A DNA stretch of 36,472 nucleotides from Thermoguttaceae bacterium. Lineage in GTDB: Bacteria > Planctomycetota > Planctomycetia > Pirellulales > Thermoguttaceae. The notes beneath the pieces were generated by a model, which worked only from the letters and a program-made list of their open reading frames with translations, searched no databases and had not been told where the DNA came from. This document shows, in pieces, positions 2,188 to 32,688 of this stretch; position 1 is the stretch's first letter; each line of letters opens with the position of its first letter. The stretch spans positions 1-36,472 of the forward strand of contig JAGCAH010000278.1 in the NCBI GenBank assembly GCA_017652805.1. The letters run 5' to 3'. The translations under genes were made by a program, and so were the position numbers.

Positions 2188-2213
2188 TTTTCACTCTTTT
2201 GGGGTTGGCGGTT

Positions 2214-4597: not shown

Positions 4598-4643
4598 GGA
4601 TTCTTCCTTCCTCATTTGCGGCGCCTGCGCCTCCGCCGGCCGA

Positions 4644-5972: not shown

Positions 5973-5998
5973 CGCCTCTGACCTCTAGTGCTGCAATC

Positions 5999-7714
5999 TT
6001 AATCGAGAACGGTTTCGCGAATGACCTCGTCGATGGTGGTGATCCCGTCGAAGACCTTTTGAAGCCCCGCCGTACGAAGCGTGAACATTCCGTTCCGCTC
6101 GGCGGCCTCACGGACTTCCGAGGCCGGGGCGTTGCGGATGATCAGGTCGCGGATCTCTTCGTTCATGATCATGAACTCATGGATCGCGGTCCGCCCCTTG
6201 TATCCGGTGTTGTTACACTTCACGCACCCCTGCCCCTGATAGAAATGCTTTCCTTCAATGTCTTTGTCGGTCAGCCCCATATCGGCCAACAGGTCGGGGG
6301 CGGGCGTGTACTCGGCGCGGCAGTCGGGGCAGATCCGGCGGACCAGACGCTGAGCCAGGATCGCCTGCACCGTGGCGGTAATCAGGAATTCGGGAACGCC
6401 CATATCTTTCAGACGCGTGATTGTGTTCGGCGCGTCGTTGGTGTGAAGGGTGCTGAAGACCAAGTGCCCGGTCAGCGCCGCCTGCACCGCGATCTGCGCG
6501 GTCTCCTGGTCGCGGATCTCGCCGACCAGCACGATGTCGGGGTCCTGCCGAAGAATCGAACGGAGGCACTGCGCGAACGTGTTGCCGATTTCGGCGTCGA
6601 TCGGCATCTGGACGATTCCGTCGATATCGTATTCGACCGGGTCTTCGGTGGTCATCAGTTTTTCGGTGATGACGTTCAGCTCGGAAAGCGCCGAATAAAG
6701 GGTCGTCGTTTTGCCGGAACCGGTCGGGCCGGTCACCAGGATGATCCCGTTCGGCTTTTTGATCACTTCGCGGAACTGCGACATCAGCTCCGGAGACATC
6801 CCGACGTTGTTCAGGTCGAGGGAGATGACGCTCTTGTCCAAGATTCGGCAGACGACGCTCTCGCCGAACATCGTCGGCAGAACGCTCACCCGGAAGTCGA
6901 CCGGAGTGCCGGCGACGAGCATCCGGATACGCCCGTCCTGCGGCAGACGCTTTTCGGCGATATCGAGGTTCGCCAGTACCTTGATGCGCGTGGTGATCGC
7001 GCTGGCCAGGTGGCGCGGCGGAGGAACCATCTCGTAAAGGGTCCCGTCGGCCTTGATTCGGATCTTGAACTCGTCTTCGAACGGCTCGAAGTGCAGGTCG
7101 CTCGCCTTGTCTTTGATCCCGAGAAGGAAGACCGTGTTGAGAAGCTTTCGCACCGGCGCGCTTTCGGCCATCGCCTCGGCACTCGCCAGGTCGAGTTCGC
7201 CGTTCTCTTCGGCCATCGCCTGGGCAAGGAGATCTTTGTCGTTCGCCAGCTCCGACATGATCGACTCGACGCTGTCCCCCTCGCTCGAGGCGTAGTAGCG
7301 TTCGAGCGCCGCTTCGACCTCGTGCGGCGTGGTGACCGTCGCCTGAATGTTATACCCCAGGAAGTTGCGAAGCTCGTCGAGCACCTCGAGCCGTTCGGGC
7401 TGGCTGGTGGCGATCGTCAGCGTGTCGTTCCGGAAGCTGATCGGGATGGCGTTATACATTCGCGCCATCGGTTCGGTCAGGTGGGCGAGAACCTCCGGCG
7501 GGATCGTCAGGTCGGAGATGTTGACGACCGGAATCCCCATCTGCTCGGCCAGCGCCTGGGCGAGCTGGTCTTCGCTGATCATGTTCATTTCGACCGCGAT
7601 GGCGCCGAGCTTCACCCCCGACCGCTGAGACTGTTCCTCAACGAGAAGGTCGAGCTGCTCTTCGTCAATAAAGCCAAGGTCGACTAAGATCTGACCGATT
7701 CTGCGCGAAGCCAT
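5999..7714 (-). CDS. gspE: GspE/PilB-family assembly ATPase (571 aa)
   Basis: Hexameric cytoplasmic ATPase that drives pseudopilus or pilus extension. The N-terminal MshEN/GSPII_E_N domain (about residues 1-150) carries IGQILVDLGFIDEEQLD. The catalytic domain has the Walker A motif GPTGSGKTT from residue 329 (Lys335), an Asp box following it (TTEDPVEYDI), and the Walker B region RQDPDIVLVGEIRD. The His box is STLHTNDAPNTITRL. Four cysteines (462, 465, 497, 500) form the two CxxC pairs of the GspE/PilB zinc subdomain, which is absent from PilT-type retraction ATPases. The start is supported by AGAGGA 7 nt upstream. It sits directly before gspF, the usual partner. A second enzyme of the same class is encoded at 9007-10725, so gspE and pilB labels cannot be assigned with certainty. 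Confidence 0.95.
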   Translation of the reverse strand: MASRRIGQILVDLGFIDEEQLDLLVEEQSQRSGVKLGAIAVEMNMISEDQLAQALAEQMGIPVVNISDLTIPPEVLAHLTEPMARMYNAIPISFRNDTLTIATSQPERLEVLDELRNFLGYNIQATVTTPHEVEAALERYYASSEGDSVESIMSELANDKDLLAQAMAEENGELDLASAEAMAESAPVRKLLNTVFLLGIKDKASDLHFEPFEDEFKIRIKADGTLYEMVPPPRHLASAITTRIKVLANLDIAEKRLPQDGRIRMLVAGTPVDFRVSVLPTMFGESVVCRILDKSVISLDLNNVGMSPELMSQFREVIKKPNGIILVTGPTGSGKTTTLYSALSELNVITEKLMTTEDPVEYDIDGIVQMPIDAEIGNTFAQCLRSILRQDPDIVLVGEIRDQETAQIAVQAALTGHLVFSTLHTNDAPNTITRLKDMGVPEFLITATVQAILAQRLVRRICPDCRAEYTPAPDLLADMGLTDKDIEGKHFYQGQGCVKCNNTGYKGRTAIHEFMIMNEEIRDLIIRNAPASEVREAAERNGMFTLRTAGLQKVFDGITTIDEVIRETVLD

Positions 7715-7758
7715 GGGTTCCTCTTTGTCTGATCGCTCTTTTACGTGTTACGGCGCCT

Positions 7759-7777
7759 GCCGAACGGTCCGTTCGGC
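7759..7777. repeat. Inverted repeat in the pilT-gspE gap
   Basis: GCCGAACGG and CCGTTCGGC are exact reverse complements separated by one base, giving a hairpin of about 7 bp with a 5-nt loop. It lies in the 100-bp gap between pilT and gspE. No T-run follows in either direction, so it is not a standard terminator. It could tune expression between the two ATPase genes by acting as a processing or mRNA-stability hairpin, but this is inference. Confidence 0.45.
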
Positions 7778-7814
7778 CGACGCCCGCGGCTGCTTCCGGA
7801 AGTGATTCGGCGCG

Positions 7815-8945
7815 CTACTTCTTTTTCTTGCCGGTGTCTTCTTCTTCCTCTTCTTCGTCGCCCCCCGTTTCGAGACCGGCCTCGTAACGGCGGATCTTCT
7901 GGTCCAGAATGTCGGGGAAGTTCGACTTGATCAGCACGTCCTCTTTGGTGACGATCCCGTCGCGCCAGAGCTGGAACAGGTGGTCGTCCAGCAGCTGCAT
8001 CCCGAGCTTGTGCCCGGTCTGAATCGACGAGTTGATTCGGAACGTCTTGTTTTCACGAATCAGGTTCGCGATAGCCGGCGTGACGACGAGCATCTCATAC
8101 GCCGCGACGCGCCCCCCCTGAATTCGGGGAAGGAGCTGCTGCGAGAGAATCCCCAGAATCGAGGTCGAAAGCTGGGTTCGGATCTGATCCTGCTGGTTCG
8201 TGGGGAAGACGTCGATGATACGGTTGACCGTTCCCTGCGCGCCGGTGGTGTGAAGCGTGCCGAAGACGACGTGCCCCGTTTCGGCGGCGGTGATCGCCGC
8301 CTCGATCGTTTCAAGGTCACGCATTTCACCGACGAGGATGACGTCGGGGTCCTGACGAAGCGCGCCGCGGATCGCGTCGGCGAACGACATCACGTCGACG
8401 CCGACCTCGCGCTGGTTGACCGTCGATTTCTTGTGGTAGTGATAGAATTCGATCGGGTCTTCGATCGTGATAATGTGGTGGTCGACGTTGGTGTTCAGGT
8501 AGTCGATACACGCGGCGAGCGTCGTCGATTTACCGGAACCCGTCGGCCCGGTGACGAGGATCAGGCCACGCGGACGGAGAATCAAGTCGTGCATCACCGG
8601 CGGTGTGCCGAGCTGTTCCATCGAAAGGAGCTCGGTCGGGATCTGACGCAAGACCAGCCCGGTGTTCCCCTTCTGCTTAAAGACCGAAACACGAAACCGC
8701 GCCTTGGTTCCGAACGCGAACCCGAAGTCGGTGCCCCCGCGCTCCTGAAGCTCCTGCTGACAGCGCTGGGGGGTGATGCTTTTCATCAGCGAGACGGTGT
8801 CGGCTGGCTCGAGGCTCTTTGTTTCCAACTTGACCAGTCGGCCATGAAGACGGAGAACCGGCGGCTGACCGACGGCCAGGTGCAGGTCGCTCGCCCCGCG
8901 AACCACGACCGTCTCGAGGAGTTTATCAATTAAGATCGTACTCAT
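7815..8945 (-). CDS. pilT: PilT-family twitching/retraction ATPase
   Basis: The 376-aa length and the motif set match PilT, the ATPase that depolymerises type IV pili. The N-terminal PAS-like domain carries the hallmark GASDLHLAVGQPPVLRLHG. The Walker A motif GPTGSGKSTT starts at residue 133 (Lys139), the Asp box is TIEDPIEFYH, the Walker B region is RQDPDVILVGEMRDLETI, and the His box is FGTLHTTGAQGTVNRIIDVF. The classic PilT C-terminal region (AYEMLVVTPAIANLIRENK, then IQTGHKLGMQLLDDHL) is present. There is no CxxC zinc pair, which separates it from the two GspE/PilB proteins beside it. The last 16 residues are an unusual run of Glu/Asp then Lys. Its presence suggests that this locus makes a dynamic, retractable fibre rather than only a secretion pseudopilus. 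Confidence 0.94.
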   Translation of the reverse strand: MSTILIDKLLETVVVRGASDLHLAVGQPPVLRLHGRLVKLETKSLEPADTVSLMKSITPQRCQQELQERGGTDFGFAFGTKARFRVSVFKQKGNTGLVLRQIPTELLSMEQLGTPPVMHDLILRPRGLILVTGPTGSGKSTTLAACIDYLNTNVDHHIITIEDPIEFYHYHKKSTVNQREVGVDVMSFADAIRGALRQDPDVILVGEMRDLETIEAAITAAETGHVVFGTLHTTGAQGTVNRIIDVFPTNQQDQIRTQLSTSILGILSQQLLPRIQGGRVAAYEMLVVTPAIANLIRENKTFRINSSIQTGHKLGMQLLDDHLFQLWRDGIVTKEDVLIKSNFPDILDQKIRRYEAGLETGGDEEEEEEDTGKKKK

Positions 8946-9006
8946 GAAGTCTCTTTCCCTTGAAATCCCTTATCAAGTTACTGTCAAAACGGTGAAACAC
9001 GCTGTG

Positions 9007-10725
9007 TTATTCTTCAAGACGCGCGACGCGCATTACCTCTTCGATGGTGGTGATCCCCTTCAGAACCTTTGAAATGCCGTCTTCGTAGAGGACGTGCATC
9101 CCCTCGCTCCGGGCGGCGCGGCGGATCTCGGAGGTCGTCGCCCCCTTATAGGCAAGTTCGCGCACCTTCGACGACATCATCATCAGTTCGAAGATCGCCT
9201 GACGCCCGCGGTAGCCCGACTTGTTGCATTCGGCGCACCCTTTCCCCTTCAGGAAGGTGCCGCGCGCCGCCATTTCGGGCGTGATCCGGGCGGCTTCGAG
9301 TTCGGCGGCGCTCGGCGTGTAGGGGTGAGAGCACTTCTTGCAGACGCGGCGAACCAGACGCTGCGCCATGATCCCAATCACCGAGCTGGAAACCAGGTAG
9401 GGGGGAACCCCCATGTCGACCAGGCGTGTGATCGCTCCCGGCGCGTCGTTCGTGTGAAGGGTGCTGAAGACCAAGTGCCCGGTCAGCGACGCCTGAATCC
9501 CCATCTGCGCCGTTTCGAGGTCGCGCATTTCGCCGACCAGAATGATGTTCGGCGCCTGACGAAGCATCGAACGGATGACCGCCGCGAAGTCGAGCCCGAT
9601 CTGGTGCTTGATTTCGACCTGGTTGATCCCGGGGAGGTAGTACTCGACCGGGTCTTCGGCGGTGATGATCTTGCGCGTCGGCGTGTTCAGCTCGTTCAGC
9701 GCGGCGTAGAGGGAGGTCGTCTTTCCCGACCCCGTCGGCCCGGTCACCAGAATGATCCCGTTCGGGCGGGAGATCAGCGAGGTAAACCGCTTGTAATCGC
9801 GCTGGCTGAATCCCAGCTGAAGAAGGGAGACGCGGATGTTGTCTTTGTCGAGGATACGCATGACGATCGACTGGCCGTGGTTGGTCGGGATGACCGAAAC
9901 GCGCAGGTCGAGGTCTTTGGTGCCGAGCGTCAGCTTGATACGCCCGTCCTGGGTGCGCCGCCGTTCGGCGATATCGAGCCGGGCGAGAATTTTAAAGCGG
10001 GAGAGGAGCGCCCCCTGGAACCGTTTGGGGATCGCTTCGCGTTCGACCAGTTTCCCGTCGATCCGGTAGCGGATCCGGACGCGGTCTTCGAACGGTTCGA
10101 TGTGAATATCCGAGGCGCGCAGCTGTACCGCCTCGCTGATGATCTGGTCGCAGAGCCGGACGATCGGCGCGTCGCTGGTGTTGTCGCCGAACGTGGCGCT
10201 CGTCGGGTCTTCGGTCGCCGCCGACTCGACCTGGGTGAAGTCGATCGCCGTGTCGGTCAGGTCGTGTATCATCGAGTCGGCGCTCTCGGCGATGTTCTGA
10301 CTGTAGTGGCGGTTGATCGCTTCCTGGATAGCTTCTTTCGAGGCGATTAACGGTTCGATCGGCTTCTGGAGAATGAATCGGAGCTTTTCGAACGTGTCCA
10401 TGTCGTTCGGGTCGCTCACGACAACCTGGAGGGTGTCGCCGTCTTCGTCGTAGGGGATCACGCCGTTTTCCCGCGCGATCGACTCGGAAATCAGTTCGAT
10501 GATCGCCGGGCGGATCGTCACGTCGCGCAGATCGATGTACTTCTTGCCGTACTCCTCGGCCAGCGCCTTGGCGACCTGCTCCCCCGTCACATACTCGAGT
10601 TTGATCAGCGCGTCTTGCAGTTTGATCCCTGACGCCTGAGCCAGCTGCTGGGCGTCTTTGACCTGAGTTCGGCTGATCAGGCCGTCCCGGTTCAGGATCT
10701 CCAGATAATTCAGTCTTTTTGCCAT
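9007..10725 (-). CDS. pilB: Second GspE/PilB-family assembly ATPase (572 aa), first gene of the operon
   Basis: A full-length extension-type ATPase: an N-terminal MshEN domain (LNYLEILNRDGLISRTQVKD), Walker A GPTGSGKTT starting at residue 329, TAEDPVEYYLPG, RQAPNIILVGEMRD, and STLHTNDAPGAITRL. The zinc subdomain has CKKC and CAEC pairs. I choose the ATG at 10725, giving MAKRLNYLE, the usual start of this family. An in-frame TTG at 10755 would add ten residues, but AGAGGA sits only about 2 nt before it, which is too close. No clear Shine-Dalgarno sequence precedes the ATG, so the start is uncertain. The gene is 61 bp upstream of pilT and directly follows the putative operon promoter. The Walker B region has Ala where the other copy has Asp (RQAPN versus RQDPD), a small difference between the two enzymes. 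Confidence 0.92.
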   Translation of the reverse strand: MAKRLNYLEILNRDGLISRTQVKDAQQLAQASGIKLQDALIKLEYVTGEQVAKALAEEYGKKYIDLRDVTIRPAIIELISESIARENGVIPYDEDGDTLQVVVSDPNDMDTFEKLRFILQKPIEPLIASKEAIQEAINRHYSQNIAESADSMIHDLTDTAIDFTQVESAATEDPTSATFGDNTSDAPIVRLCDQIISEAVQLRASDIHIEPFEDRVRIRYRIDGKLVEREAIPKRFQGALLSRFKILARLDIAERRRTQDGRIKLTLGTKDLDLRVSVIPTNHGQSIVMRILDKDNIRVSLLQLGFSQRDYKRFTSLISRPNGIILVTGPTGSGKTTSLYAALNELNTPTRKIITAEDPVEYYLPGINQVEIKHQIGLDFAAVIRSMLRQAPNIILVGEMRDLETAQMGIQASLTGHLVFSTLHTNDAPGAITRLVDMGVPPYLVSSSVIGIMAQRLVRRVCKKCSHPYTPSAAELEAARITPEMAARGTFLKGKGCAECNKSGYRGRQAIFELMMMSSKVRELAYKGATTSEIRRAARSEGMHVLYEDGISKVLKGITTIEEVMRVARLEE

Positions 10726-10854
10726 GACGGTTTCAGGATGATGGTGCGTGCGCAAAATCCTCTCAGGCGCAAGCCCCTTTTCAGGGACTGCCGCACGGTA
10801 ACGATGATAAAACGGCGGAGAGAGGGCGTTTTTGCCGACTCCCCCCTATAACAT

Positions 10855-21590: not shown

Positions 21591-23597
21591 TTACGCGACG
21601 TGCCGGTTGTAGATCGCCTGACCGTATGAGGCGCGGCGGATTTGCGCGGCTTCGCTCTGGTCGGCGGGGCGTTCAAACTGGAGCAGAATCACATCCGAAG
21701 CTTCGCGGATCGAAGCCGCATTTTTGAGCCTCGTGGCAAGGGTCGAATATTTCACGCTCAGCTCATACCACAGATAGTCAAGCTGCATGTAGAGGTCGCC
21801 GATCGACTTGCCCTGCTGCCGGGCGAAGTTGAGGAGCGCCTCCTTGCGGGACCAGAAGGTCCACTGGGCGATTCCGTACCCAGCGGAATCGTGTACGAAG
21901 TTGGTGTACGAACCGTTGTCGACGGCGGCGGTGTACTCGTCGTCGGACATTCCCAGGGATCGCTCGTAGGAGTTCTGCAGGTTGTTGGCGCGGAATCCGC
22001 CCGACTCGGCGTTCAGATTCCCCATCAGGCCGGCGACGCCGTAGAGGTTTCCGATCTTGGCGACAAAGTAGTCCCAGACCACCTGTTCGGGATTCGAGAC
22101 CGGGGTCGGCGTCGGCGTCGGATCGGGAACGACGACCTTGCTCGGGTCGGGCGTGATCTGAATGTTCGAGAAGACGGTGTTTCCCGCGCCGCCGTAGAAC
22201 CCGACCATTCCCCTCGTCAGGCGGGTGTCGTTGGCGGCGACCTGAACGGCGTCGCCGACGCCGCAGGCGACCTGACCGTCGACGATCTGCGCCCAGACGG
22301 TGTAGCTCTGGTTATGGGCGAGGGAGTAGTTTGCGCTCGCCAGGACGGTGAACGATTCCCCTTCGCTGACGTAGTAGAGGGTGACCGCGGTGTTCCGGAA
22401 TTCGGCGAAGTAACGCGCGCCCGAATCCTGAACCGCCAGCTCGATCCCCGCCTGGAAACTGACGGTCGAGTCGGTCGACCTGAACGTGGCGGAGACCCGA
22501 AGATCTTCGGGGAACGCGTCGTAGTCGCAGACCGCTTCAAGCGCGCCGCTCCGTCCGTCGATCGTGAGGGAGCCGTTTCGGGCGGTCACCTTCGATATCT
22601 TGTCGCCGAAGAGGTACCAGTATTGAGTGTCGGAAGGATAGATCTCGTAGGTCGTTACCGGATTGGCGACCGGCTGGCCGTTCCGGACGATGTCGGCGTG
22701 GACGATGACGTCGCCGACCCGATTGGTCGGCGCCGACGCGGCGGCGGGATTCGCCTCGACCGAAATGTTGCTGAACGAAACCGCTCCGCTAGAGGCGTAG
22801 AAGCCGACCCATCCCCCCGAAAGACGCGTGTCGTTATACGTTAAGAGGGTGTTGTCGCCGACGCCGAACGAAACCTTTCCGCCGGAGACCTGCCCCCAGA
22901 TCGTGTATGTTTGGTTCACGGAGAACGAGCAGAGTGCCCCGTCGAGAAGGGTCATCTGTTCATTGTTCCCGACGTAGTAGAGGTAGACGCGGTCCGACTG
23001 GAGTTCGGCGTAATAGCGGTGCCCGGTATCGGAGACCGCCAGTTCCAGCCCCCCCTTGAACGAGGCGGCGGTCGCTTTGAAGTCGGCGGTCACGCGGAGA
23101 TTCTCCGAAAAGCCGTCGTAGTCGCAGACCGCCTCGAGTGCGCCGGTGCGCGCGTCGATCGAAAGGGTGCCGCCCCGCGCGGATATCTTTGAAATCTGAT
23201 TGCCGAAAAGGGCCCAGTTCTGAAGATCGGAAGGATAGATGGCGAACGACTTGGTGTTTTCGGGGAGCGCCTCGTTCGTCTGGAACCAGTAGGTGGAAAG
23301 GTGCGCGTGGTCGCCCGGGCCGACGAAGCCGTCGCCGTCAATATCGGACGCCGGGTTCCAGTTCTCCGTGTCTTTGGTGGAGAACCAGGCGTAACTCATA
23401 TACGAGAGTTCCGACGGTCCGATGAATCCGTCCCCGTCGGCATCCATGGTCGAGGCGATGTAGACGTCGCCGACCTGGTAACCCGGGGGCGCGGCCTGGG
23501 TCGGCGCGGGAAGCGCGGCGGCCGCTTCCAGCCCGGCGGTGACGGCCAAAAGCTGACGGTCTTCGAGCGATTCGAAACGTAAAACGCGTTTTTTCAT
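21591..23597 (-). CDS. Exported modular protein: EF-hand/dockerin, two ConA-like modules, phage-tail-type lysozyme
   Basis: The protein has 668 aa. It opens MKKRVLRFESLEDRQLLAV, the planctomycetal surface/export signature found on many of their large secreted proteins. Two EF-hand/dockerin-type calcium loops follow, DADGDGFIGPSE (52-63) and DIDGDGFVGPGD (85-96). Two homologous beta-sandwich modules of the concanavalin/LamG type come next (about 118-283 and 316-487), each with GALEAVCDY, LELAV-D-G and GxVGFY landmarks, then a PTPTPTP linker. The last 160 residues (GVAGLMGNLNAESGGF, then AGYGIAQWTFWSRKEAL) match the phage-tail lysozyme family (Phage_lysozyme2), with Glu531 as the likely catalytic acid; this family cuts peptidoglycan and is best known from Firmicutes phages and conjugative elements. 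Start supported by AGGGA 8 nt upstream. First of three paralogues; its chassis is nearly identical to that of the next gene. Confidence 0.85.
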   Translation of the reverse strand: MKKRVLRFESLEDRQLLAVTAGLEAAAALPAPTQAAPPGYQVGDVYIASTMDADGDGFIGPSELSYMSYAWFSTKDTENWNPASDIDGDGFVGPGDHAHLSTYWFQTNEALPENTKSFAIYPSDLQNWALFGNQISKISARGGTLSIDARTGALEAVCDYDGFSENLRVTADFKATAASFKGGLELAVSDTGHRYYAELQSDRVYLYYVGNNEQMTLLDGALCSFSVNQTYTIWGQVSGGKVSFGVGDNTLLTYNDTRLSGGWVGFYASSGAVSFSNISVEANPAAASAPTNRVGDVIVHADIVRNGQPVANPVTTYEIYPSDTQYWYLFGDKISKVTARNGSLTIDGRSGALEAVCDYDAFPEDLRVSATFRSTDSTVSFQAGIELAVQDSGARYFAEFRNTAVTLYYVSEGESFTVLASANYSLAHNQSYTVWAQIVDGQVACGVGDAVQVAANDTRLTRGMVGFYGGAGNTVFSNIQITPDPSKVVVPDPTPTPTPVSNPEQVVWDYFVAKIGNLYGVAGLMGNLNAESGGFRANNLQNSYERSLGMSDDEYTAAVDNGSYTNFVHDSAGYGIAQWTFWSRKEALLNFARQQGKSIGDLYMQLDYLWYELSVKYSTLATRLKNAASIREASDVILLQFERPADQSEAAQIRRASYGQAIYNRHVA
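22698..23597. repeat. 900-bp repeat shared with 25070-25969
   Basis: The first 300 codons of the lysozyme-domain gene and of its neighbour (25070-25969) align without gaps and differ at only about 20 residues, roughly 94% protein identity, with long stretches of identical DNA. The third paralogue matches the same region more loosely. The similarity weakens through the second beta-sandwich module and disappears at the C-terminal catalytic domain. Recent duplication or ongoing gene conversion of the scaffold is the simplest reading. Confidence 0.85.
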
Positions 23598-23617
23598 AGC
23601 GAGTCCCTTTCGGGCTT

Positions 23618-23633
23618 GGCCGGAAATCCGGCC
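23618..23633 (-). promoter_or_regulatory. Leader hairpin upstream of the lysozyme-domain gene
   Basis: GGCCGG-AAAT-CCGGCC is a perfect 6-bp stem with a 4-nt loop lying 20 nt before the start codon, just upstream of the ribosome binding site. The neighbouring paralogue has the same stem at the same distance (25992-26007). It could affect translation initiation or mRNA stability. Confidence 0.5.
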
Positions 23634-23718
23634 GGAGGAGTTATTCTGACGATTCCCGCGACTTGTTACGGCGCGAAGAGGACGCTCTTAATTCTCCATC
23701 GTCCCGCCGCGCCCCGCC

Positions 23719-23724
23719 ATTATA
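23719..23724 (-). promoter_or_regulatory. -10 box of the lysozyme-domain gene
   Basis: A perfect TATAAT on the minus strand, 121 bp before the start codon and just downstream of the terminator of the preceding gene. A -35 box is not convincing. The paralogue at 25969 has TATAAT in the same position, preceded by the same TTTATCCGAAAAA sequence. Confidence 0.5.
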
Positions 23725-23739
23725 CATTATTTTTCGGAT

Positions 23740-23769
23740 AAAAGAGGGGGAAGCGGAAATTTCCCCCTC
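23740..23769 (-). terminator. Probable terminator of the first NlpC/P60-type gene
   Basis: GAGGGGGAA (23744-23752) and TTCCCCCTC (23761-23769) are exact complements around an 8-nt loop. On the minus strand the stem is followed by TTTTAT, a short T-run. It lies 35 bp after the stop at 23804 and immediately before the next gene's -10 box. Confidence 0.6.
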
Positions 23770-23803
23770 CGAGCCGGCATAATCTCCCGGTTTGAACCGA
23801 GAG

Positions 23804-25969
23804 TCAGCTGATCTGAAGTCCCTGGTGCGAAATCGGAATGTAGCCGTTCGAGAAGAGGCTGGCGAAGGTGTACTTCCGATCGACCCGCCAGGTCGAGTTC
23901 CCGGAGATCGGCTGACCGGCGCCCGCCGCGCCTGACTGCTCGATGACGTAGATGCACTGGTTCGCCACGTCGACCGACGAAACCAGACGGACATGCCCGC
24001 CGGTCTGTTTGTACCAGAGAACCGCGTCTCCCGGTTTGAGGCAGGCGTAGGCGGCGTACATGACGTCCTGTCCGTTATCCGAGGTCACCTGGGCGGTATG
24101 CGAGCCGGACGTGAGGTTGTAGTTCCCGACCGCCACGATCTTTCCGCGGCCGGGGAACATGTAGTAGGTTCCCAGGAGGGAAAGGGAGGGGTCGAAAACG
24201 CGCCAGGCCATCGAGACCGCGCTGGAGCAGTCGGATCCGACATAGGTCGTCGATTCGGTCGGGCCGGTGTAGACGCCGCTGGCGTTCAGGTAGGAGGTGA
24301 ACTTTTCGTAGGAACCGCTTCGCATCTTCTGCGAATAGGGGACGCCGTAATAGGTCTGCCCCGCCTTGAACATCACGCCGTAGTCGGGGTTGTAATAGGT
24401 GATATCCGCCGCGGCGGTCCATTTGACCGTCGCCATCGAACGCATATAGGCGACGACTTCGGCGCGGAGCGCGGCGTTTTCCTCTTCGGGGGTCGGCCCG
24501 GTGTCGTAGAGGTCGTCTCCGGTATAGACGCCGATCGTCCGGAACGTATTCTGCCCGCTGCTGGCGTAGAACCCGACCTTTCCCCCCGAAAGGCGCGAAT
24601 CGCTGACCGAGGCGAGAACGGTCGAGCCGACGCCGCAGGCGAGCCGTCCGTCGGAAAGCTGCGCCCAGATCGAGTAACTCTGGTTGTAGTTGAACGTATA
24701 CGCCGCGCTTGCCAGGAGGGTCATCGATTCCCCTTCGCTGACGTAGTAGAGGTAGGCTCCGCCGGTTTGGAACTCGGCGTAATAGCGCGCGCCTGAATCC
24801 TGAACCGCCAGCTCGATTCCCGCGTTCATTCCCCCGGTCAGATCGGTCGAACGGAAGGCGGCGGTCACCAGAAGATCTTCGGGAAATCCTTCGTAGTCGC
24901 AGACCGCTTCAAGCGCGCCGCTCCGCCCGTCGATCGTGAGCGTGCCGTTTTTGGCGGTTATCTTCGAGATCTTGTCGCCGAAGAGGTACCAGTATTGAGT
25001 GTCGGAAGGATAGATTTCGTACGAGACGACCGGGTCGGGAAGGACGGCGCCGTTTTCGACGATTTTCGCGTCGATGATGACGTCGCCGACCCGATTGGTC
25101 GGCGCCGGCGCGGCGGCGGGATTGTTTTCAACGGTGATGTTGCTGAACGAAACCGCTCCGCTCGAGGCGTAGAAGCCAACCCATCCCCCCGAAAGACGCG
25201 TGTCGTTATACGTTAAGAGGGTGTTGTCGCCGACGCCGAACGAAACCTTTCCGCCGGAGACCTGTCCCCAGATCGTGTACGTCTGGTTCACGGAGAACGA
25301 GTAGAGCGCCCCGTCGAGAAGGGTCATCTGTTCGTTGCTGCCGACGTAGTAGAGGTAGACGCGGTCCGACTGGAGTTCGGCGTAATAGCGGTGCCCGGTG
25401 TCGGAGACCGCCAGTTCCAGCCCCCCTTTGAACGCGGCGGCGGTCGCTTTGAAGTCGGCGGTCACGCGGAGATTCTCCGAAAAGCCGTCGTAGTCGCAGA
25501 CCGCCTCGAGCGCGCCGGTGCGCGCGTCGATCGAAAGGGTGCCGCCCCGTGCGGATATCTTTGAAATCTGATTGCCGACGAGAAGCCAGTTCTGAAGATC
25601 GGACGGGTAGATTTCGTACGACTTGGTGTTTTCGGGGAGCGCCTCGTTCGTCTGGAACCAGTAGGAGGAAAGGTGCGCGTGGTCGCCCGGCCCGACAAAG
25701 CCGTCGCCGTCGATATCGGACGCCGGGTTCCAGTTCTCCGTGTCTTTGGTGGAGAACCAGGCGTAACTCATATACGAAAGTTCCGCCGGTCCGATGAACC
25801 CGTCCCCGTCGACATCGACGGTCGAGGCGATATAGACGTCGCCGACCCGATATCCGGCGGGCGCGGCCTCGGTCGGCGCGGGAAGTGCGGCGGCTGCTTC
25901 CATACCGGCGGTGACGGCCAGGAGCTGACGGTCTTCGAGCGATTCGAAACGTAAAACGCGTTTTTTCAT
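23804..25969 (-). CDS. Exported modular protein: EF-hand/dockerin, two ConA-like modules, NlpC/P60-like hydrolase
   Basis: The protein has 721 aa. The chassis is nearly identical to that of the 668-aa neighbour: the MKKRVLRFESLEDRQLLAV export signature, calcium loops DVDGDGFIGPAE and DIDGDGFVGPGD, and two concanavalin/LamG-like modules (about 118-283 and 316-490). The C-terminus differs. A helical segment EEENAALRAEVVAYMRSMA is followed by YYGVPYSQK, then YVGSDCSSAVSMAW with Cys581, GDAVLWYKQTGGHVRLV with His659, and CIYVIEQSG. Cys in a S-DCS-S context and His in a GHV strand with a GDxxLW lead-in are the NlpC/P60 (papain-like) cell-wall peptidase pattern, so it probably cleaves peptide or amide bonds in peptidoglycan. 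The exact subfamily is not recognised. The start has an AGAGG ribosome binding site. Own TATAAT box and leader hairpin. Confidence 0.82.
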   Translation of the reverse strand: MKKRVLRFESLEDRQLLAVTAGMEAAAALPAPTEAAPAGYRVGDVYIASTVDVDGDGFIGPAELSYMSYAWFSTKDTENWNPASDIDGDGFVGPGDHAHLSSYWFQTNEALPENTKSYEIYPSDLQNWLLVGNQISKISARGGTLSIDARTGALEAVCDYDGFSENLRVTADFKATAAAFKGGLELAVSDTGHRYYAELQSDRVYLYYVGSNEQMTLLDGALYSFSVNQTYTIWGQVSGGKVSFGVGDNTLLTYNDTRLSGGWVGFYASSGAVSFSNITVENNPAAAPAPTNRVGDVIIDAKIVENGAVLPDPVVSYEIYPSDTQYWYLFGDKISKITAKNGTLTIDGRSGALEAVCDYEGFPEDLLVTAAFRSTDLTGGMNAGIELAVQDSGARYYAEFQTGGAYLYYVSEGESMTLLASAAYTFNYNQSYSIWAQLSDGRLACGVGSTVLASVSDSRLSGGKVGFYASSGQNTFRTIGVYTGDDLYDTGPTPEEENAALRAEVVAYMRSMATVKWTAAADITYYNPDYGVMFKAGQTYYGVPYSQKMRSGSYEKFTSYLNASGVYTGPTESTTYVGSDCSSAVSMAWRVFDPSLSLLGTYYMFPGRGKIVAVGNYNLTSGSHTAQVTSDNGQDVMYAAYACLKPGDAVLWYKQTGGHVRLVSSVDVANQCIYVIEQSGAAGAGQPISGNSTWRVDRKYTFASLFSNGYIPISHQGLQIS

Positions 25970-25991
25970 GGCGAGTACCTCTCAAAATTTC

Positions 25992-26007
25992 GGCCGGAAG
26001 GCCGGCC
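25992..26007 (-). promoter_or_regulatory. Leader hairpin upstream of the first NlpC/P60-type gene
   Basis: GGCCGG-AAGG-CCGGCC is a perfect 6-bp stem with a 4-nt loop, 22 nt before the start codon. The stem sequence and position match the lysozyme paralogue while the loop differs (AAGG versus AAAT), suggesting that the structure is kept rather than the loop sequence. Confidence 0.5.
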
Positions 26008-26081
26008 GGCGGAATAATTCCCGAGTGATTCCCTGCGGTGTGTCCCGGCGGGTCGGTTCAACCGCTCCGCGGCGCACCCTG

Positions 26082-26087
26082 ATTATA
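26082..26087 (-). promoter_or_regulatory. -10 box of the first NlpC/P60-type gene
   Basis: TATAAT on the minus strand, 112 bp before the start codon. It overlaps the edge of a small stem (CCCCTTT / AAAGGGG) formed by the preceding TTTATCCGAAAAAGGGG. No convincing -35 box is seen. Position and upstream sequence match the lysozyme paralogue. Confidence 0.5.
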
Positions 26088-26122
26088 CCCCTTTTTCGGA
26101 TAAAGGGGAGGAAAACCCGCTC

Positions 26123-28285
26123 TCAGCCGAGTTGAAGCCCTTTGTGCGAGAGGGGGATATAACCGTTGCTGTAAAGACTGGCGAAGGTAATCTTCCGATC
26201 GACCCGCCAGGTCGAGTTTCCGGCGATCGGCGTTTCGTACTGCGTCGCTCCCGCCTGCTCGATGACGTAGACGCACTGGTTCGCCGGATCGACCGCCGAG
26301 ACCATGCGGATATGCCCGTCGGACCCCCTGTACCAGAGAACAGTGTCCCCCGGTTTGAGAAGGGCGTACGCGGCGTACATCACCTCCCGCCCGTTATACG
26401 AAGTGATCTCCGACGACACCGTGTCGGAAGTGTATTCGTACTCGCCGACCTTCACAATATTGCCTCGGCCGGGAACCCGGTAATAAGGACCCAGGAACGG
26501 CTGTTGGGGGTCGAAGGTGCGCCACGCCATCGTGATCGCGCTCGAACAGTCCGATCCGATGTACGCCGACGACCCGGTCGGCCCTCTGTAGACGTGGTTT
26601 TCATCAAGATAGGAGCTGAAGAGCTCGTAGGAGCCGTTGCGAACCTTCTGCGAGTAGGGGACGCCGTAATAGGTCTGACCCGCCTTGAACATCACGCCGA
26701 GACTGGTGTCGTAAAAGGTGATGTCTTCGGCGGGGATCCATTCGATCGTCGCCATCGAACGCATGTACGCGACGATTTCGGCGCGAATCGCGGCGTTCTC
26801 TTCTTCGGGGGTCGGCCCGATGTCGTAGAGACTCTCGCCGGTATAGACGCCGATCGTCTGAAAGGCGTTCAGCCCGGCGCTGGCGTAGAAGCCGACGTTC
26901 CCCCCCGAAAGGCGCGCCTCGCCGACCGAAAGGAGAACTTCCTGACCGACGCCGCAGGCGAGTCGGCCGCCGGAGAGCTGGGCCCAGACGGCGTAGTCCC
27001 GGTTGTAATCCAACGTGCAGGGCGCGCTTCCCAAGGCGGTCATCGCTTTCGCCTCGTCGACGTAGTAGAGCGTGACGCCGCCGGGGCTGAATTCGGCATA
27101 GTAACACTCACCCGAATCCCGCACCGCCAGTTCCATTCCCGCGGCGAAAGTTACGGTCGGGTCGGACGACCGGAAGTAAGAGGTGACCAACAGCTCCGCG
27201 GGGAACCCGCCGTAGTCGCAGACCGCTTCGAGCGCGCCGCTTCGCGCGTCGAGCGTGAGCGTGCCGCCGCGGGCGGTTGCCTTTGAAATCTTATCTCCGG
27301 CAAGGAGCCAGTTCTGTGTGTCGGAAGGGACGATCTCGTATGAGATCAACGGGTCGGGAAGGACGGCGCCGTTTTCAACGATCTGCGCGTCGACGATGAC
27401 GTCGCCGACGCGGTTTGAGACGGCCGGGGCGGCGTCGGGATCGTTTTTGACGGCGATGCCGCTGAACTCGGCGACCCCGCCCGCGGCGCGGAAACCGACC
27501 CAGCCCCCCGAAAGGCGCGCCCCGCCGACCGAAAGGAGGGTGTTCCCGCCGACGCCGAACGAGACCGTTCCGCCGGAGACCTGTCCCCAGACCGTATAGG
27601 TGCGATCGGCGGCGAACGCGTACGCCGTTCCGTCCAGAAGGTTCATCTCTCCGTTCCCGCCGACGTAGTAGAGGTAGACGCGGTCCGACCGGAGTTCGGC
27701 GTAGTAACACTCGCCGCTTTCGCCGAGCGCCAGTTCAAGCCCCCCCTGGAACGGCGCGGCGGCCGCTTTGAAGTCGGCGGTCACACGGATATTTTCGGAA
27801 AAGCCGCCGTAGTCGCAGATCGCCTCGAGCTCTCCGCCGCGCGCATCGAGGGTGAGCGTTCCCCCTTTGGCGGATATCTTCGAAATCTGATTTCCGGCAA
27901 GGAGCCAGTTCTGAAGGTCGGAAGGATAGATTTCGATCGATTTGAGTTCGTCAGGAAGCTCTTCGCAGGTTCGGAACCAGTGGGAGGAGAGTATCGCGTA
28001 GTCGCCCGGACCGACGAATCCGTCTCCGTCGAAATCGGCCGCCGGGTTCCAGTTCTCATGCCCGTCGGCGGTGAACCAGGCGTAACTCATATACGAGAGT
28101 TCCGAAGGGCCGATAAACCCGTCCCCGTCGATATCGATCGCCGAGGCGATACAGACGTCCCCGACCCGATAACCGAAAGGAGCGGCCTCGGTCGGGGAAA
28201 GGAGCGCGGCGGCGTCGAGCCCGGCGGTGACGGCCAAGAGCCGACGATCATCCAGCAATTCAAAACGTAAGGCGCGTTTTTTCAT
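26123..28285 (-). CDS. Exported modular protein: EF-hand/dockerin, two ConA-like modules, NlpC/P60-like hydrolase (diverged copy)
   Basis: The protein has 720 aa. The N-terminus MKKRALRFELLDDRRLLAV is a diverged form of the planctomycetal signature. The calcium loops are DIDGDGFIGPSE and DFDGDGFVGPGD. Two concanavalin/LamG-like modules follow, with GGFSENIRVTADF and GGWVGFRAAGG landmarks in the first. The C-terminal hydrolase domain is the same type as in the 721-aa neighbour: EEENAAIRAEIVAYMRSMA, YYGVPYSQK, YIGSDCSSAITMAW (Cys580), GDTVLWYRGSDGHIRMV (His658), CVYVIEQAG. The chassis differs clearly from the other two copies while the catalytic domain remains close to the second, so this copy probably diverged earliest or escaped gene conversion. 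Both catalytic residues are kept, so it looks active. Likely a secreted, calcium-stabilised cell-wall peptidase. Confidence 0.82.
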   Translation of the reverse strand: MKKRALRFELLDDRRLLAVTAGLDAAALLSPTEAAPFGYRVGDVCIASAIDIDGDGFIGPSELSYMSYAWFTADGHENWNPAADFDGDGFVGPGDYAILSSHWFRTCEELPDELKSIEIYPSDLQNWLLAGNQISKISAKGGTLTLDARGGELEAICDYGGFSENIRVTADFKAAAAPFQGGLELALGESGECYYAELRSDRVYLYYVGGNGEMNLLDGTAYAFAADRTYTVWGQVSGGTVSFGVGGNTLLSVGGARLSGGWVGFRAAGGVAEFSGIAVKNDPDAAPAVSNRVGDVIVDAQIVENGAVLPDPLISYEIVPSDTQNWLLAGDKISKATARGGTLTLDARSGALEAVCDYGGFPAELLVTSYFRSSDPTVTFAAGMELAVRDSGECYYAEFSPGGVTLYYVDEAKAMTALGSAPCTLDYNRDYAVWAQLSGGRLACGVGQEVLLSVGEARLSGGNVGFYASAGLNAFQTIGVYTGESLYDIGPTPEEENAAIRAEIVAYMRSMATIEWIPAEDITFYDTSLGVMFKAGQTYYGVPYSQKVRNGSYELFSSYLDENHVYRGPTGSSAYIGSDCSSAITMAWRTFDPQQPFLGPYYRVPGRGNIVKVGEYEYTSDTVSSEITSYNGREVMYAAYALLKPGDTVLWYRGSDGHIRMVSAVDPANQCVYVIEQAGATQYETPIAGNSTWRVDRKITFASLYSNGYIPLSHKGLQLG

Positions 28286-28536: not shown

Positions 28537-30138
28537 TTACCGCCTGACCCGGCTGTCGCAGAAGGCGGAATTGTTGTTCGTTTCGACCTCGTCCCGAACG
28601 TCGGAGATCGTCCAGCCGATGTAGTATTCTTTGTTCATCGTCAGTTTATCGCTCGGGATCCCGTCGACGGTGAGCGTGACGGAGCTCCCGGGGTGGATCG
28701 ACGTCGAGATCCGTTCCTCTTTCAGGAAAATCTTTCGGTAATCGGGGAACGAACGGTCTTCCGAGGCGTAGACCCTGACGGTGTACGTTCCGCTGACGGG
28801 ACCTGTCCCGACGTTTTTGATCTGCCCGGTTCTGAGGTTGAATTTGTTCCAATTCTTCGAAACCGATCCTCCGTTTTGCGCTTCCAGGTCGGGGGACGCG
28901 GCGATCTTCAGACGGCTGTCGCAGTAGGCGGCGTTGTTGTCGAGCGAGTCTTCGCCCCGCACGTCGCCGATGACCCAGCCGATAGTGTAGCTTTTCCCCT
29001 CGGCGAGTTTCGCGGTCGGAATGTCGCTGATCGAGACGAAGGTCGACTGGCCGGGCTGCACCGACGAATACGATTTGTACGATTTCAGAAGGATGTCGTT
29101 TTTCGGCGAGATGACGTTGTCGGTCGAGGCGTAGACGTTGATCGTGTAGGGGGACTCGGCGCGGAGGCTGCCGACGTTTTTGATGGTTCCGGTCGTCAGG
29201 GAAAACCGGTTCTTCTCCGGCCTGATCGAGCCGCCGTTCGAGGCGGCCAGGTCGGCGGACGCCGCGACTTTGATCCGATCTCTGGTCCGCGCGGCGTTGT
29301 TTTCGGTCGCGATTTCGTTTCTGACGTTGCTGATGATCCACGAGATGTAATACTTCTCGCCCGGTTTGAGACCCGTCGTCGGAATATTCTGAATTTTGAG
29401 GTTCAGGAACATGCCGGGCGCGACGGACGCGTTAATCGTCGCTTCTTTCAGAAGCCGGTTGGGATCGCGGGTCAGCGCCGGGTCGGTCGATGCGTAGACG
29501 CGGACGATGTAGCCGGATTCCGCGTAGGCGGAACCGAGATTTCTGACCGGGCCGGTCTCGAGGGTGAACCGGCCGTTTTCCATCGTGATCGAACTTTCCC
29601 TTTCGTCGGTCGCCAGGTCGGGATGGGTGGGTGTTTCTTCGGAAAAGACGTGGCGGGCGGAGTTGTTCTGCGTGACGATTTCGCCTTTCACGTCGGCGAC
29701 AACCCAGCCGAAGTAATACCGCTTTCCCTCATCCAGGCCGTCGAGGGGAATATTCTCAATCGTGATCTCCCGCGACCGGCCCGCGACCAGCGACGTGGGA
29801 ACGGTATATGTGTAAATGAGCGTGTCGCGCGATTCCGAAACCGCCGAATTGAAGGAAGAGGCGTAGACCTTGATTTTGTAATACGGTTCGGCGTCGCCGG
29901 ACCCGACGTTTTTAATCGGTCCGGTGGTCAGCCGGAGACGATTCCCCTCTGTCGAAACCCTTCCGCCGTCCGACGCTTCCAGGTCGGGACGCTCCGGCTC
30001 TTTCGTTTCGGCGTTTCGGGGAAAGGCGGCGCCCCACAGCGCGAAAAAAAGAAACGCGGCAAAGAGAGAAAGCGCCCCTTCCCGCGCGGGTCGGGAAAGG
30101 AGGGAGTTCAGCGGGCGGGGAAGGGGAGTTCGGCTCAT
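28537..30138 (-). CDS. Exported protein of four CARDB-type repeats (533 aa)
   Basis: A basic N-terminal region is followed by a hydrophobic signal helix (LSLFAAFLFFALWGAAFP, residues 24-40). Four tandem repeats of about 120 residues follow, starting near 50, 172, 294 and 415. Each opens PDLEA or DLA, then runs through F-L-TGPIKNVGS, YTIxVYAS, a SxxPG loop, IPxxxLxxGKxYYIGW, and ends D-VRxE-xxxNNxA. This is the CARDB (cell-adhesion-related domain in bacteria) Ig-like pattern. There is no catalytic domain and no visible anchor, so an adhesive or spacer role outside the cell is inferred. It lies between the DUF4838 gene (90-bp gap) and the hydrolase array. Its start may be shorter than annotated, since no clear ribosome binding site precedes the ATG. 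Confidence 0.82.
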   Translation of the reverse strand: MSRTPLPRPLNSLLSRPAREGALSLFAAFLFFALWGAAFPRNAETKEPERPDLEASDGGRVSTEGNRLRLTTGPIKNVGSGDAEPYYKIKVYASSFNSAVSESRDTLIYTYTVPTSLVAGRSREITIENIPLDGLDEGKRYYFGWVVADVKGEIVTQNNSARHVFSEETPTHPDLATDERESSITMENGRFTLETGPVRNLGSAYAESGYIVRVYASTDPALTRDPNRLLKEATINASVAPGMFLNLKIQNIPTTGLKPGEKYYISWIISNVRNEIATENNAARTRDRIKVAASADLAASNGGSIRPEKNRFSLTTGTIKNVGSLRAESPYTINVYASTDNVISPKNDILLKSYKSYSSVQPGQSTFVSISDIPTAKLAEGKSYTIGWVIGDVRGEDSLDNNAAYCDSRLKIAASPDLEAQNGGSVSKNWNKFNLRTGQIKNVGTGPVSGTYTVRVYASEDRSFPDYRKIFLKEERISTSIHPGSSVTLTVDGIPSDKLTMNKEYYIGWTISDVRDEVETNNNSAFCDSRVRR

Positions 30139-30228: not shown

Positions 30229-32688
30229 TCAGAAGGCGACCACCACGCGGTCGACGTAAATGTTGAACGGATGGTCGGCGTTTTCGACCGGCGCGATCCA
30301 GAACGAAAGCCCCGGCGAATAGGGACATTCCCCCAAATCGACCCATGTGTAATCGGCGCCGCTTAATTCGGCGGCGGTTACCGTTTTCACCTCGCCCCGA
30401 TCCTCTTTTTCCTTTTGGTTGTAGAAACCCGCGCGCAGAAGCGCTTCTTCGGGGAGCGGCGAGCCGTCGGCCGACTCGGCGCGGACCGCGGCGTAAAGAT
30501 GCAGGGGGCCGGTCTCGTCGCACGGAACGGTTTCCAGAATGTTCAGGTCATAATTGACCGACCATTCGTGATGGGTCGAGGGGATCCGAACCGTCGCGCC
30601 GTCGGACGCTTTCGGGTCCTCTTCGCGGAAGGTCAGCTCGTCCGGTTTGGTCAGTTGGAAATCGAGAGTCTGAAGGTCGAGCGAGCGGTGGGGTCGGATC
30701 ATGTCGTTGATTGCCGGCGGACCCGCTTCTTTCAGCGAGTCGGAATACCGCTTAACAAAATTCTCCTTGAACTCGGCGAACTGCGGCGGCGTGGTCACCT
30801 CGGCGTATTTCACGATCTTGTAGGCGTCGAGCCGGGCGTTGAAGTCGACCGCCAGATCTTTCATCTCGGCGACGGTCGGGAAATCGGCGACGCTCGCCAG
30901 ACGCGCCTTCTGCCGGTACTCGGGATACCCCATCAGCCAGACCAGATCGAGCGGCATTCGTTCGCGGCGGACTTTTTCGACAAGCCCTTTGTGTTTCTGA
31001 GGGTCTTTCGCTTCGAGCGACGCGGCGGTCTCGCGCGCGCGGTCTTGGAGTTCGGTCGCTTTCAGAAGCGTCGCCAGATCGAGCCAGTCACAGGCGGTGG
31101 GACGGAAGATTCCCAGATAGATTCCCGACGCCTCGCACCGGTCCGAAAGAAGGTCGAAGTAGTCCATGTAGATCGGAACCAGTTCCGGCGCGTAATAACC
31201 CGCGATAAACTCTTTCATCAGCTCGCGCTGGTCAAGTTCCGGGTTCCAGAGGAGTTTGGCGACGACCCAGGCGCGCATCTGAACGTAGTCCCCGGTCGGG
31301 CACTGGTAGTCCCCCTGTTCAAAGAGCCCGATGGTGTGGTTGTCGATAAAGAATTTGATGTTGTCGTCCCAGACGCGGTAGTTCGGAAACGGCGACATGT
31401 AGAGGCTGAAATTGGTCATGTAGTCCCAGACGAAAAGGTGGTCGGCCATCCGGCTCCACCCTTCGGTATCGTCGCGGAACGAGGCGTTCTGTTCCCCCTC
31501 CCCCAGAGGCTGGATGAACGAGCATTCGATCGAGCAGAGACGTACGATCACGTTCTTCCGCGCGCGGGTCAGTTTCGGCGGTTTGCGGGTGAACTGATAC
31601 GCGAGGGTGTCGACATAGAGATCGGGACGGACTTTTTCGATCTCTTCGGCCATCCGGTTCACGAACCGGATATACGGCCCCATCTGCGACTCTTCCTCTT
31701 CGGCGATCGCGCGGCACTTTTCACATTCGCAGTAGCCCTGCCAGTCGTTCTGACTGATCGAAACGATCGTCACCTCCGGGTGCGCCTCAATCTGCGCCAG
31801 CACCCGCCTGAGCATTTCCTGAAACAGTTCCTCGTTGGTGAGGCAGAGCTGCGTGCCGTAAGGGTGGGTCTGCTCCGGCTTGATCCGTTTGAGCATCTCC
31901 CTGTATTCGGGAGATCCGCCCCCCGCCCAGAGCGGATACCAGACTTTGCGGATCCCGTCGATTTCCGGGAACCAGTCGGGATGTGCCTCAAATTCGGTCG
32001 GCGGGATCAGCTGATAGAAGGAATGAACGAAATAGAGGTAGGCCTGATGTCCGCCGTACTCTTCCGGAATCGCGTCGCTGTTCCCGTTGCATTTCAGGTG
32101 AACGGCGAGTTTGTAGTTTCCGGGCCCGATCGCCCCGTTGTAGAACGATTCGCGGTTGATCAGTTTCGGCGTGTAGACCGTGTCAAAATCGTCGGCTGCG
32201 ACACGGTCGCGTTTCGGAATGAACGATTCGTCGCTCGTCCACCACCGACAGCCGAGTTCGTCTTCCAGGAACGTGTTGACGGCGTAAAGCATTCCGCGAA
32301 CCGGATGTCCCGAGAAGACGATCGAACGGCCGACCTGTTTGATCACGATCGCGTCGTAGCCGAGCGTGTCTTCGTCGACGCTTCCGGCGAGGAGACTTTG
32401 GCTTGCCGCCGACGGGCCGATTACCAGAAGCTTTTGGTTCGGATCGACGGTTACGGCGGTTTCCGAAACGATCGGCAGCTCGGCGCCGGAGATCGCTTTG
32501 AGGTTTTCGGCCAGCTCGCTCGCGGCGGTCATCTGAACCGGGGTTGGGGTTTCGGGAAGGACGATGACGTATTCGGACTTTCCGCCGTCAGCAAGAGTCA
32601 GCTCTTCGGCGGCGGCGCCGCGCGTCAAGAGGGGAAGGAGAAGCGCTGCGGCAAACAGAAGCGCGCGCAATTTTACGTCGGTGATCAT
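30229..32688 (-). CDS. Secreted DUF4838 (alpha-glucuronidase-like) protein, 819 aa
   Basis: The signal peptide is ALLFAAALLLPLLTRGAAA with likely cleavage after AAA. Residues about 30-150 form the alpha-glucuronidase-type N-terminal domain (TPVQMTAASELAENLKAISG, then LLVIGPSAASQSL and VFSGHPVRGMLYAVNTFLED), followed by LGCRWWTSDESFIPKRDRV. A TIM-barrel-like DUF4838 core then carries PEVTIVSISQNDWQGYCECEKC around residue 320, IRFVNRMAEEIEKVRPDLYVDTLAY, and LFVWDYMTNFSLYMSPFPNY. The C-terminal 130 residues look like a beta-sandwich accessory domain. DUF4838 proteins are linked by structure to GH67/GH115-like glycosidases but mostly lack a proven substrate, so I call it a glycan-active exported protein only. 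AGGA 8 nt upstream supports the start. The CxCxxC cluster is striking for a secreted enzyme. Confidence 0.85.
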   Translation of the reverse strand: MITDVKLRALLFAAALLLPLLTRGAAAEELTLADGGKSEYVIVLPETPTPVQMTAASELAENLKAISGAELPIVSETAVTVDPNQKLLVIGPSAASQSLLAGSVDEDTLGYDAIVIKQVGRSIVFSGHPVRGMLYAVNTFLEDELGCRWWTSDESFIPKRDRVAADDFDTVYTPKLINRESFYNGAIGPGNYKLAVHLKCNGNSDAIPEEYGGHQAYLYFVHSFYQLIPPTEFEAHPDWFPEIDGIRKVWYPLWAGGGSPEYREMLKRIKPEQTHPYGTQLCLTNEELFQEMLRRVLAQIEAHPEVTIVSISQNDWQGYCECEKCRAIAEEEESQMGPYIRFVNRMAEEIEKVRPDLYVDTLAYQFTRKPPKLTRARKNVIVRLCSIECSFIQPLGEGEQNASFRDDTEGWSRMADHLFVWDYMTNFSLYMSPFPNYRVWDDNIKFFIDNHTIGLFEQGDYQCPTGDYVQMRAWVVAKLLWNPELDQRELMKEFIAGYYAPELVPIYMDYFDLLSDRCEASGIYLGIFRPTACDWLDLATLLKATELQDRARETAASLEAKDPQKHKGLVEKVRRERMPLDLVWLMGYPEYRQKARLASVADFPTVAEMKDLAVDFNARLDAYKIVKYAEVTTPPQFAEFKENFVKRYSDSLKEAGPPAINDMIRPHRSLDLQTLDFQLTKPDELTFREEDPKASDGATVRIPSTHHEWSVNYDLNILETVPCDETGPLHLYAAVRAESADGSPLPEEALLRAGFYNQKEKEDRGEVKTVTAAELSGADYTWVDLGECPYSPGLSFWIAPVENADHPFNIYVDRVVVAF

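Follow-up and report, generated by a model that had tools for sequence, protein, structure and literature searches.

A dockerin-bearing enzyme platform with exchangeable C-terminal domains in ruminant-gut Thermoguttaceae

Three adjacent genes of a Thermoguttaceae bacterium encode proteins that, by homology, carry a type I dockerin near the N-terminus, followed by two concanavalin (ConA)-type modules and a catalytic C-terminus that differs among them. The tandem is not the unit; rather, the constant part, which we call the chassis, is a genus-restricted platform for several enzyme types. On balance, and by a modest degree, we favor the view that these proteins belong to a non-cellulosomal cohesin-dockerin system of a ruminant-gut genus, which would dock enzymes for the digestion of other bacteria. 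The genes lie in a stretch of 36,472 nucleotides, referred to below as the window.

Results

The minus strand of the window holds three adjacent open reading frames of 668, 721 and 720 residues; all features of these three genes are on this strand. In gene 1 (21591..23597), the dockerin and two ConA-type modules precede a phage-type lysozyme, and in genes 2 (23804..25969) and 3 (26123..28285) the same parts precede an NlpC/P60-fold domain. The N-terminal ~485 residues are common to all three and contribute most of the full-length protein identity to gene 1, which is 67% and 53% for the other two. At the DNA level, genes 1 and 2 are 91-97% identical per 150-bp window across most of the dockerin and module 1, less alike in module 2 and unrelated beyond it. 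The initial annotation had proposed three adjacent genes with one constant scaffold and exchangeable C-termini, and the reading frames and chassis identity agree with this; the residues that it named (Glu531, Cys581/His659 and Cys580/His658) are all where it placed them. It also described a planctomycetal export signature. This motif is recognisable (aa 1-19 of gene 1, 23541..23597), though its score against the Pfam family Planc_extracel is below the curated cut-off in genes 1 and 2 (E 3e-4, or 3.3e-4 for gene 1; 20.7 bits versus 25.5) and poorer still in gene 3 (E 0.72). The three chassis proteins are thus probably secreted, to judge from this motif.

All three proteins have two invariant EF-hand-type loops, DxDGDGFIGPxE and DxDGDGFVGPGD. 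They had been described as two calcium loops, which is accurate as far as it goes but misses their identity: by homology, they constitute a type I dockerin module, found at aa 45-112 of gene 1 (23262..23465), aa 45-112 of gene 2 (25634..25837) and aa 44-111 of gene 3 (27953..28156). Compared directly with the Pfam dockerin, the chassis modules score below threshold (E 0.03-0.05), which is why a reading made without tools recognised the calcium loops alone. The gene 2 segment, used as a query, retrieves modules that exceed the Pfam Dockerin_1 cut-off, both from further proteins of the genus and from a different family; among them are the C-termini of the proteins L033 (7e-8) and L010 (3e-11). 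In an alignment of 47 modules, the pattern is unbroken from the chassis to the Pfam-positive dockerins of the genus, and the chassis modules have the two 12-residue DxDxDG loops, each with a helix, within the ~60 residues that define type I dockerins (PF00404). The dockerin part of an AF2 model of dockerin plus module 1 was poorly predicted and is of low confidence. Besides the chassis modules, the window's genome encodes 25 Pfam-level dockerins. Because the loops are apparently a dockerin, what had been regarded as an adhesive chassis becomes a likely docking chassis.

Downstream of the dockerin are two mutually homologous beta-sandwiches of concanavalin type. Module 1 occupies aa 113-286 in gene 1 (22740..23261), aa 113-286 in gene 2 (25112..25633) and aa 112-285 in gene 3 (27431..27952); module 2 occupies aa 293-486 (22140..22721), aa 293-484 (24518..25093) and aa 292-483 (26837..27412), respectively. 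The sandwich in the AF2 model, made for gene 2, is confident (mostly pLDDT 80-96). Its best match by Foldseek and VIA is the CBM66 of Bacillus subtilis levanase (Z 20.9, 2.7 Å over 158 residues, 15% identity), with thrombospondin C-terminal fragments next. The CBM66 profile matches the module weakly (E 0.077), and “CBM66-like” is used here as a statement on the predicted fold only, not on membership of CBM66. The modules had been labeled concanavalin/LamG-like; two concanavalin-type sandwiches are indeed present, with CBM66 as the nearest structure, but LamG (PF13385) was rejected for them, since its matches in the window's genome fall elsewhere.

The C-terminal domain of gene 1 (aa 499-668, 21594..22103) matches Pfam Phage_lysozyme2 (PF18013) at E 1.3e-27, with 97.1 bits against a cut-off of 28.2, in accord with the lysozyme fold that had been predicted for it. 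Glu531 (codon 22005..22007), the presumed catalytic acid, is invariant in the lysozyme alignment. A sequence search of the PDB with this domain returned nothing at E 0.01. Relatives of the domain were found on 412 viral contigs, and it is 55-56% identical to endolysin domains from Faecalibacterium phages, Acutalibacter phages and a lemur faecal virus. The endolysins of Faecalibacterium phage FP_Lagaffe and Acutalibacter phage Fontainebleau share this degree of identity over the length of the lysozyme domain and keep the Glu; unlike gene 1, they are annotated as amidase endolysins, adjoin a holin and lack the chassis. Among 40 planctomycete relatives, PF18013 occurs in this genus only and is missing in 35. 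The planctomycete lysozyme domains form one clade (support 99/90) in a tree that is effectively unrooted, and none of the Ruminococcus/Clostridia genomes that carry a relative of the NlpC/P60 domain contains PF18013. Capture from phages of gut Clostridia would be the simplest history, in a direction suggested by the distribution and not by the rootless tree. No chassis was found in viral contigs, which speaks against a viral origin for that part of the protein. One lysozyme copy in another genome of the genus (L219; G003:C20:56078-56550) is broken across two frames and is apparently a decayed paralogue.

Pfam yielded no match on the C-termini of genes 2 and 3, and in particular none to NlpC/P60 (PF00877); weak Pfam matches to CHAP were obtained for relatives of the domain only. 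An AF2 prediction of the gene 2 domain (aa 494-721, 23807..24490), built on an alignment of 16 relatives, reached pLDDT 93 and pTM 0.91, and the top 32 VIA matches to it (Z of at least 10) were mostly NlpC/P60 enzymes, at Z 10-11.5. The structure prediction thus agrees with the NlpC/P60-like ends first read from the letters, and we assign both C-termini to the NlpC/P60 superfamily by predicted fold, not as members of PF00877. The gene 3 domain (aa 493-720, 26126..26809), with Cys580/His658, is 68% identical to that of gene 2. In the latter, Cys581 (codon 24227..24229), the putative nucleophile, His659 (23993..23995) and a third polar residue, Gln678 (23936-23938), are invariant in 16 of 16 sequences and form a candidate Cys-His-polar triad by conservation. 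Searching PDB sequences with the NlpC/P60-like profile produced nothing beyond chance matches to a nanobody and Wza, and structure comparison decided the fold. A phage origin was rejected for this domain, which had no match in 50,697 phage records. Related domains are present in Thermoguttaceae of the ruminant gut, in other members of the family and in two bins of gut Clostridia, RUG14223 (labelled Ruminococcus) and RGIG2965. At four loci of other gut Thermoguttaceae (L007, L008, L068 and L070), the same domain is fused, free of the chassis, to DUF1080 (a 3-keto-disaccharide hydrolase) or to a BPL_N/DJ-1-like domain; peptidoglycan therefore need not be its substrate.

The chassis is found in 30 open reading frames, some cut by contig ends, distributed over five of seven analysed genomes of one Thermoguttaceae genus, of which one member originated from goat duodenum; the remaining two genomes lack it. 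Outside the genus, a survey of 119 genomes of the family, covering all kinships, gave only weak matches at the level of the sandwich, and 391 other genomes drawn from the phylum gave one such match. Seven C-terminal types are borne by these 30 genes: lysozyme (four), NlpC/P60 (three), alpha/beta hydrolase (seven), GDSL esterase (three), endonuclease/exonuclease/phosphatase (EEP, DNase-I-like; four), BNR sialidase-like propeller (three) and a domain of 450-470 residues (six). This last domain has no Pfam match, is highly conserved and is present at least once per genome (L021:2977-5844, L021:6201-9065 and four homologues). A survey of planctomycetes with tabulated C-termini, as the initial annotation had suggested, thus resolves the chassis as a genus-restricted set. 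The three-gene array of wall cutters that it described is real, but its limits are not: because the chassis bears five more C-terminal types, it is not dedicated to peptidoglycan. Lysozyme and peptidase genes are adjacent only in the window's genome; in a second genome (G003) they are on different contigs, and there the lysozyme chassis gene adjoins a DNase-I-like one. None of the seven types is recognisable as a plant cell-wall glycoside hydrolase (non-chassis dockerin proteins were sampled only), and the dockerin-bearing cellulases or hemicellulases that mark a cellulosome were not recognised in the chassis set.

Trees of the chassis and of the catalytic domains are in conflict. In the tree of dockerin plus module 1, the starred branches force at least two label changes each for lysozyme, NlpC/P60, EEP and alpha/beta hydrolase. 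This tree splits the lysozyme carriers, whose lysozyme domains form one clade, and so the same catalytic domain rides different chassis lineages. Parts would have been swapped, or else homogenised by gene conversion between neighbors; either fits the trees.

The five genomes that carry the chassis also encode cohesin-like modules. The Pfam Cohesin cut-off is exceeded in two members of the genus (G002 and G006), and the window's own genome has eight cohesin-like matches; such modules lie on its contigs C40 and C171, and a protein at the end of C171 includes a second copy that is cut. G003 encodes an exported protein that has at least four cohesin-like modules in tandem and runs into a contig end. 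A further contig end of this genome bears one cohesin-like module together with an fn3-like stretch and a dockerin; an NlpC/P60 chassis gene is 13.6 kb away. No overlap between the G003 contigs C22 and C8 was found, so a single scaffoldin gene there is only a suggestion. The scores of the tandem modules are slightly below the Pfam cohesin cut-off. In a single BLASTP comparison, a tandem module was related to Pfam-positive cohesins at E 3e-15. Cohesin identity draws on a single branch of the family; when the profile of the tandem modules was compared with those of more typical planctomycete cohesins, no significant similarity emerged. From these sequence relationships, the tandem modules are likely cohesins, and they could bind the chassis dockerins.

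Seven large surface proteins of the genus (L059, L062, L099, L103, L050, L083 and L084) end in a dockerin followed by a conserved acidic tail, with last residues such as DLGVDFDVF or DVDLDIF. This tail, which the chassis enzymes do not have, may serve in sorting or anchoring as a signal of a kind not yet recognised. One of these loci (L083:1485-17639, in G006) is an open reading frame of 5384 residues with a planctomycetal signal and a C-terminal dockerin, beside a cohesin-like and dockerin reading frame.

Discussion

These observations are compatible with a set of exported, dockerin-tagged enzymes in a multi-enzyme system peculiar to this genus of ruminant-gut Thermoguttaceae. Each protein would be attached by its N-terminal dockerin to surface or scaffold proteins with cohesins, its one or two ConA-type modules might recognise glycan of the target or of the cell itself, and the exchangeable C-terminus would supply the chemistry. 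Gene 1, to go by its fold, would cut glycan strands with a lysozyme of the kind found in endolysins of gut-Clostridia phages; genes 2 and 3, by their modeled fold, would cleave peptide or amide linkages through their Cys-His NlpC/P60 domains. The two kinds of cutter might cooperate on peptidoglycan, as the initial annotation proposed. In concert with the esterases and the DNase-I-like and sialidase-like enzymes that share the chassis, these proteins may digest neighboring bacteria or debris (perhaps also host mucus) for nutrition. The initial annotation had left the substrate between other bacteria and the cell's own wall. We favor exogenous peptidoglycan, because the lysozyme domain is common to the endolysins of gut-Clostridia phages; the target of peptidoglycan cleavage is thus presumably outside the cell. 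A bolder version of this reading, which we advance tentatively and consider possible but rather doubtful, is a planctomycete “lyticome”: a cohesin-scaffolded machine, independent of clostridial cellulosomes, in which catalytic domains are swapped on a dockerin-CBM chassis and other gut bacteria are digested. Its docked set would comprise an endolysin-type lysozyme, wall peptidases, esterases, nucleases and sialidases.

The same proteins could instead be autolysins that remodel the planctomycete's own peptidoglycan, held at the envelope by their dockerin-like and ConA-type parts. NlpC/P60 enzymes often act on the wall of the producer, and the neighborhood of the three genes, with polA, secA and a type II secretion/pilus cluster, looks like one of housekeeping functions. 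We nonetheless think this unlikely, given a lysozyme that is confined to the genus, missing in 35 of 40 relatives and closest to Clostridia phage endolysins, genes that are multicopy and variable across five genomes, and a chassis that also bears esterase, nuclease-like and sialidase-like domains without a role in the wall. Killing of competitors, rather than feeding, by captured endolysins secreted as bacteriolysins would account for a phage-shared lysozyme and a peptidase at one locus, for their several copies and for their export. This explanation overlaps with digestion, and the dockerin, the glycan-binding parts and the sister enzymes on the chassis indicate a general digestive set; the annotated neighbors include no evident immunity gene. 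On its own, antagonism seems improbable to us.

The third alternative concerns the dockerin itself. The calcium loops might be a calcium-stabilised spacer packed on the ConA-type module, in the manner of thrombospondin type 3 repeats, in which case the enzymes would be free or glycan-bound. In its favor, the structures closest to the dockerin-plus-module model include C-terminal fragments of thrombospondin and COMP (Z 19.1 and 18.1), the dockerin occupies an N-terminal position in what is otherwise the linker of the repeat unit, and the identity of the cohesin partners is weak. The modules nevertheless show the loop-helix pattern and spacing of dockerins, and they are homologous to C-terminal Dockerin_1 modules in other proteins of the genus, which are not followed by such a lectin module. 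We accordingly give the spacer little credence and retain docking as the preferred function.

The earlier statement that no described system has this arrangement was too strong. According to a review (PMC6403190, citing Morais 2016 and Bensoussan 2017), the cellulosome of R. champanellensis has lysozyme activity, Ruminococcus cellulosomes include dockerin-containing cell-wall hydrolases, and a “lyticome” has been suggested. That case shares with ours a dockerin on a cell-wall hydrolase in a gut bacterium and the proposal of a bacteria-digesting complex. Ours differs in its planctomycete host, N-terminal dockerin, tandem CBM66-like modules, phage-endolysin-type lysozyme and whole paralogous platform of enzyme types. 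A crystal structure of RflaF_05439 from Ruminococcus flavefaciens, which had no detectable protease activity, revealed NlpC/P60 modules joined to a dockerin (PMC3573020). Like genes 2 and 3, this protein combines a rumen setting, a dockerin and NlpC/P60-fold modules unrecognisable by sequence; unlike them, it has two tandem NlpC/P60 modules and a C-terminal X-dockerin, without ConA-type modules. The profile of the gene 2/3 domain did not find it among PDB sequences. Finally, a “planctosome” has been hypothesised in freshwater Nemodlikiaceae as a planctomycete cohesin/dockerin complex for peptides (PMC6461901). It resembles the present system in its planctomycete cohesin/dockerin proteins, the lack of a cellulose-degrading role and a proposed extracellular multi-enzyme complex. 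In that model, metallopeptidases are docked to single-cohesin adaptors and an LTD-anchored protein, whereas here there are peptidoglycan hydrolases, esterases, nuclease-like and sialidase-like enzymes and a multi-cohesin protein. The kind of system is therefore precedented; new, relative to the open papers searched, are the phylum-level host for dockerin-bearing wall hydrolases, the phage-type lysozyme and the systematic chassis.

Cohesins and dockerins are common beyond cellulosomes, mostly with no explanation for their presence. Here, a compact and testable case is at hand, in which small genomes combine a single dockerin chassis, seven interchangeable catalytic types and cohesin-like partners. 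If the dockerin binds cohesin, the lyticome and planctosome proposals would both acquire a well-defined molecular instance from the ruminant gut, and movement of domains between the lysis genes of phages and a digestive secretome would be demonstrated.

Other genes of the window deserve mention. A type II secretion or type IV pilus cluster at 1204-10755 contains pseudopilin-like genes, GspF, two GspE/PilB proteins with MshEN domains and a PilT-like ATPase, and polA and secA are also near the three chassis genes. The cluster and secA would suit the export of chassis proteins, and their proximity may be coincidence. Just beyond gene 3, 28537-30138 encodes a 533-residue protein of several similar repeats of ~120 residues, and 30229-32688 a DUF4838 protein (E 1e-89) with a weak match of the GH67 N-terminal type.
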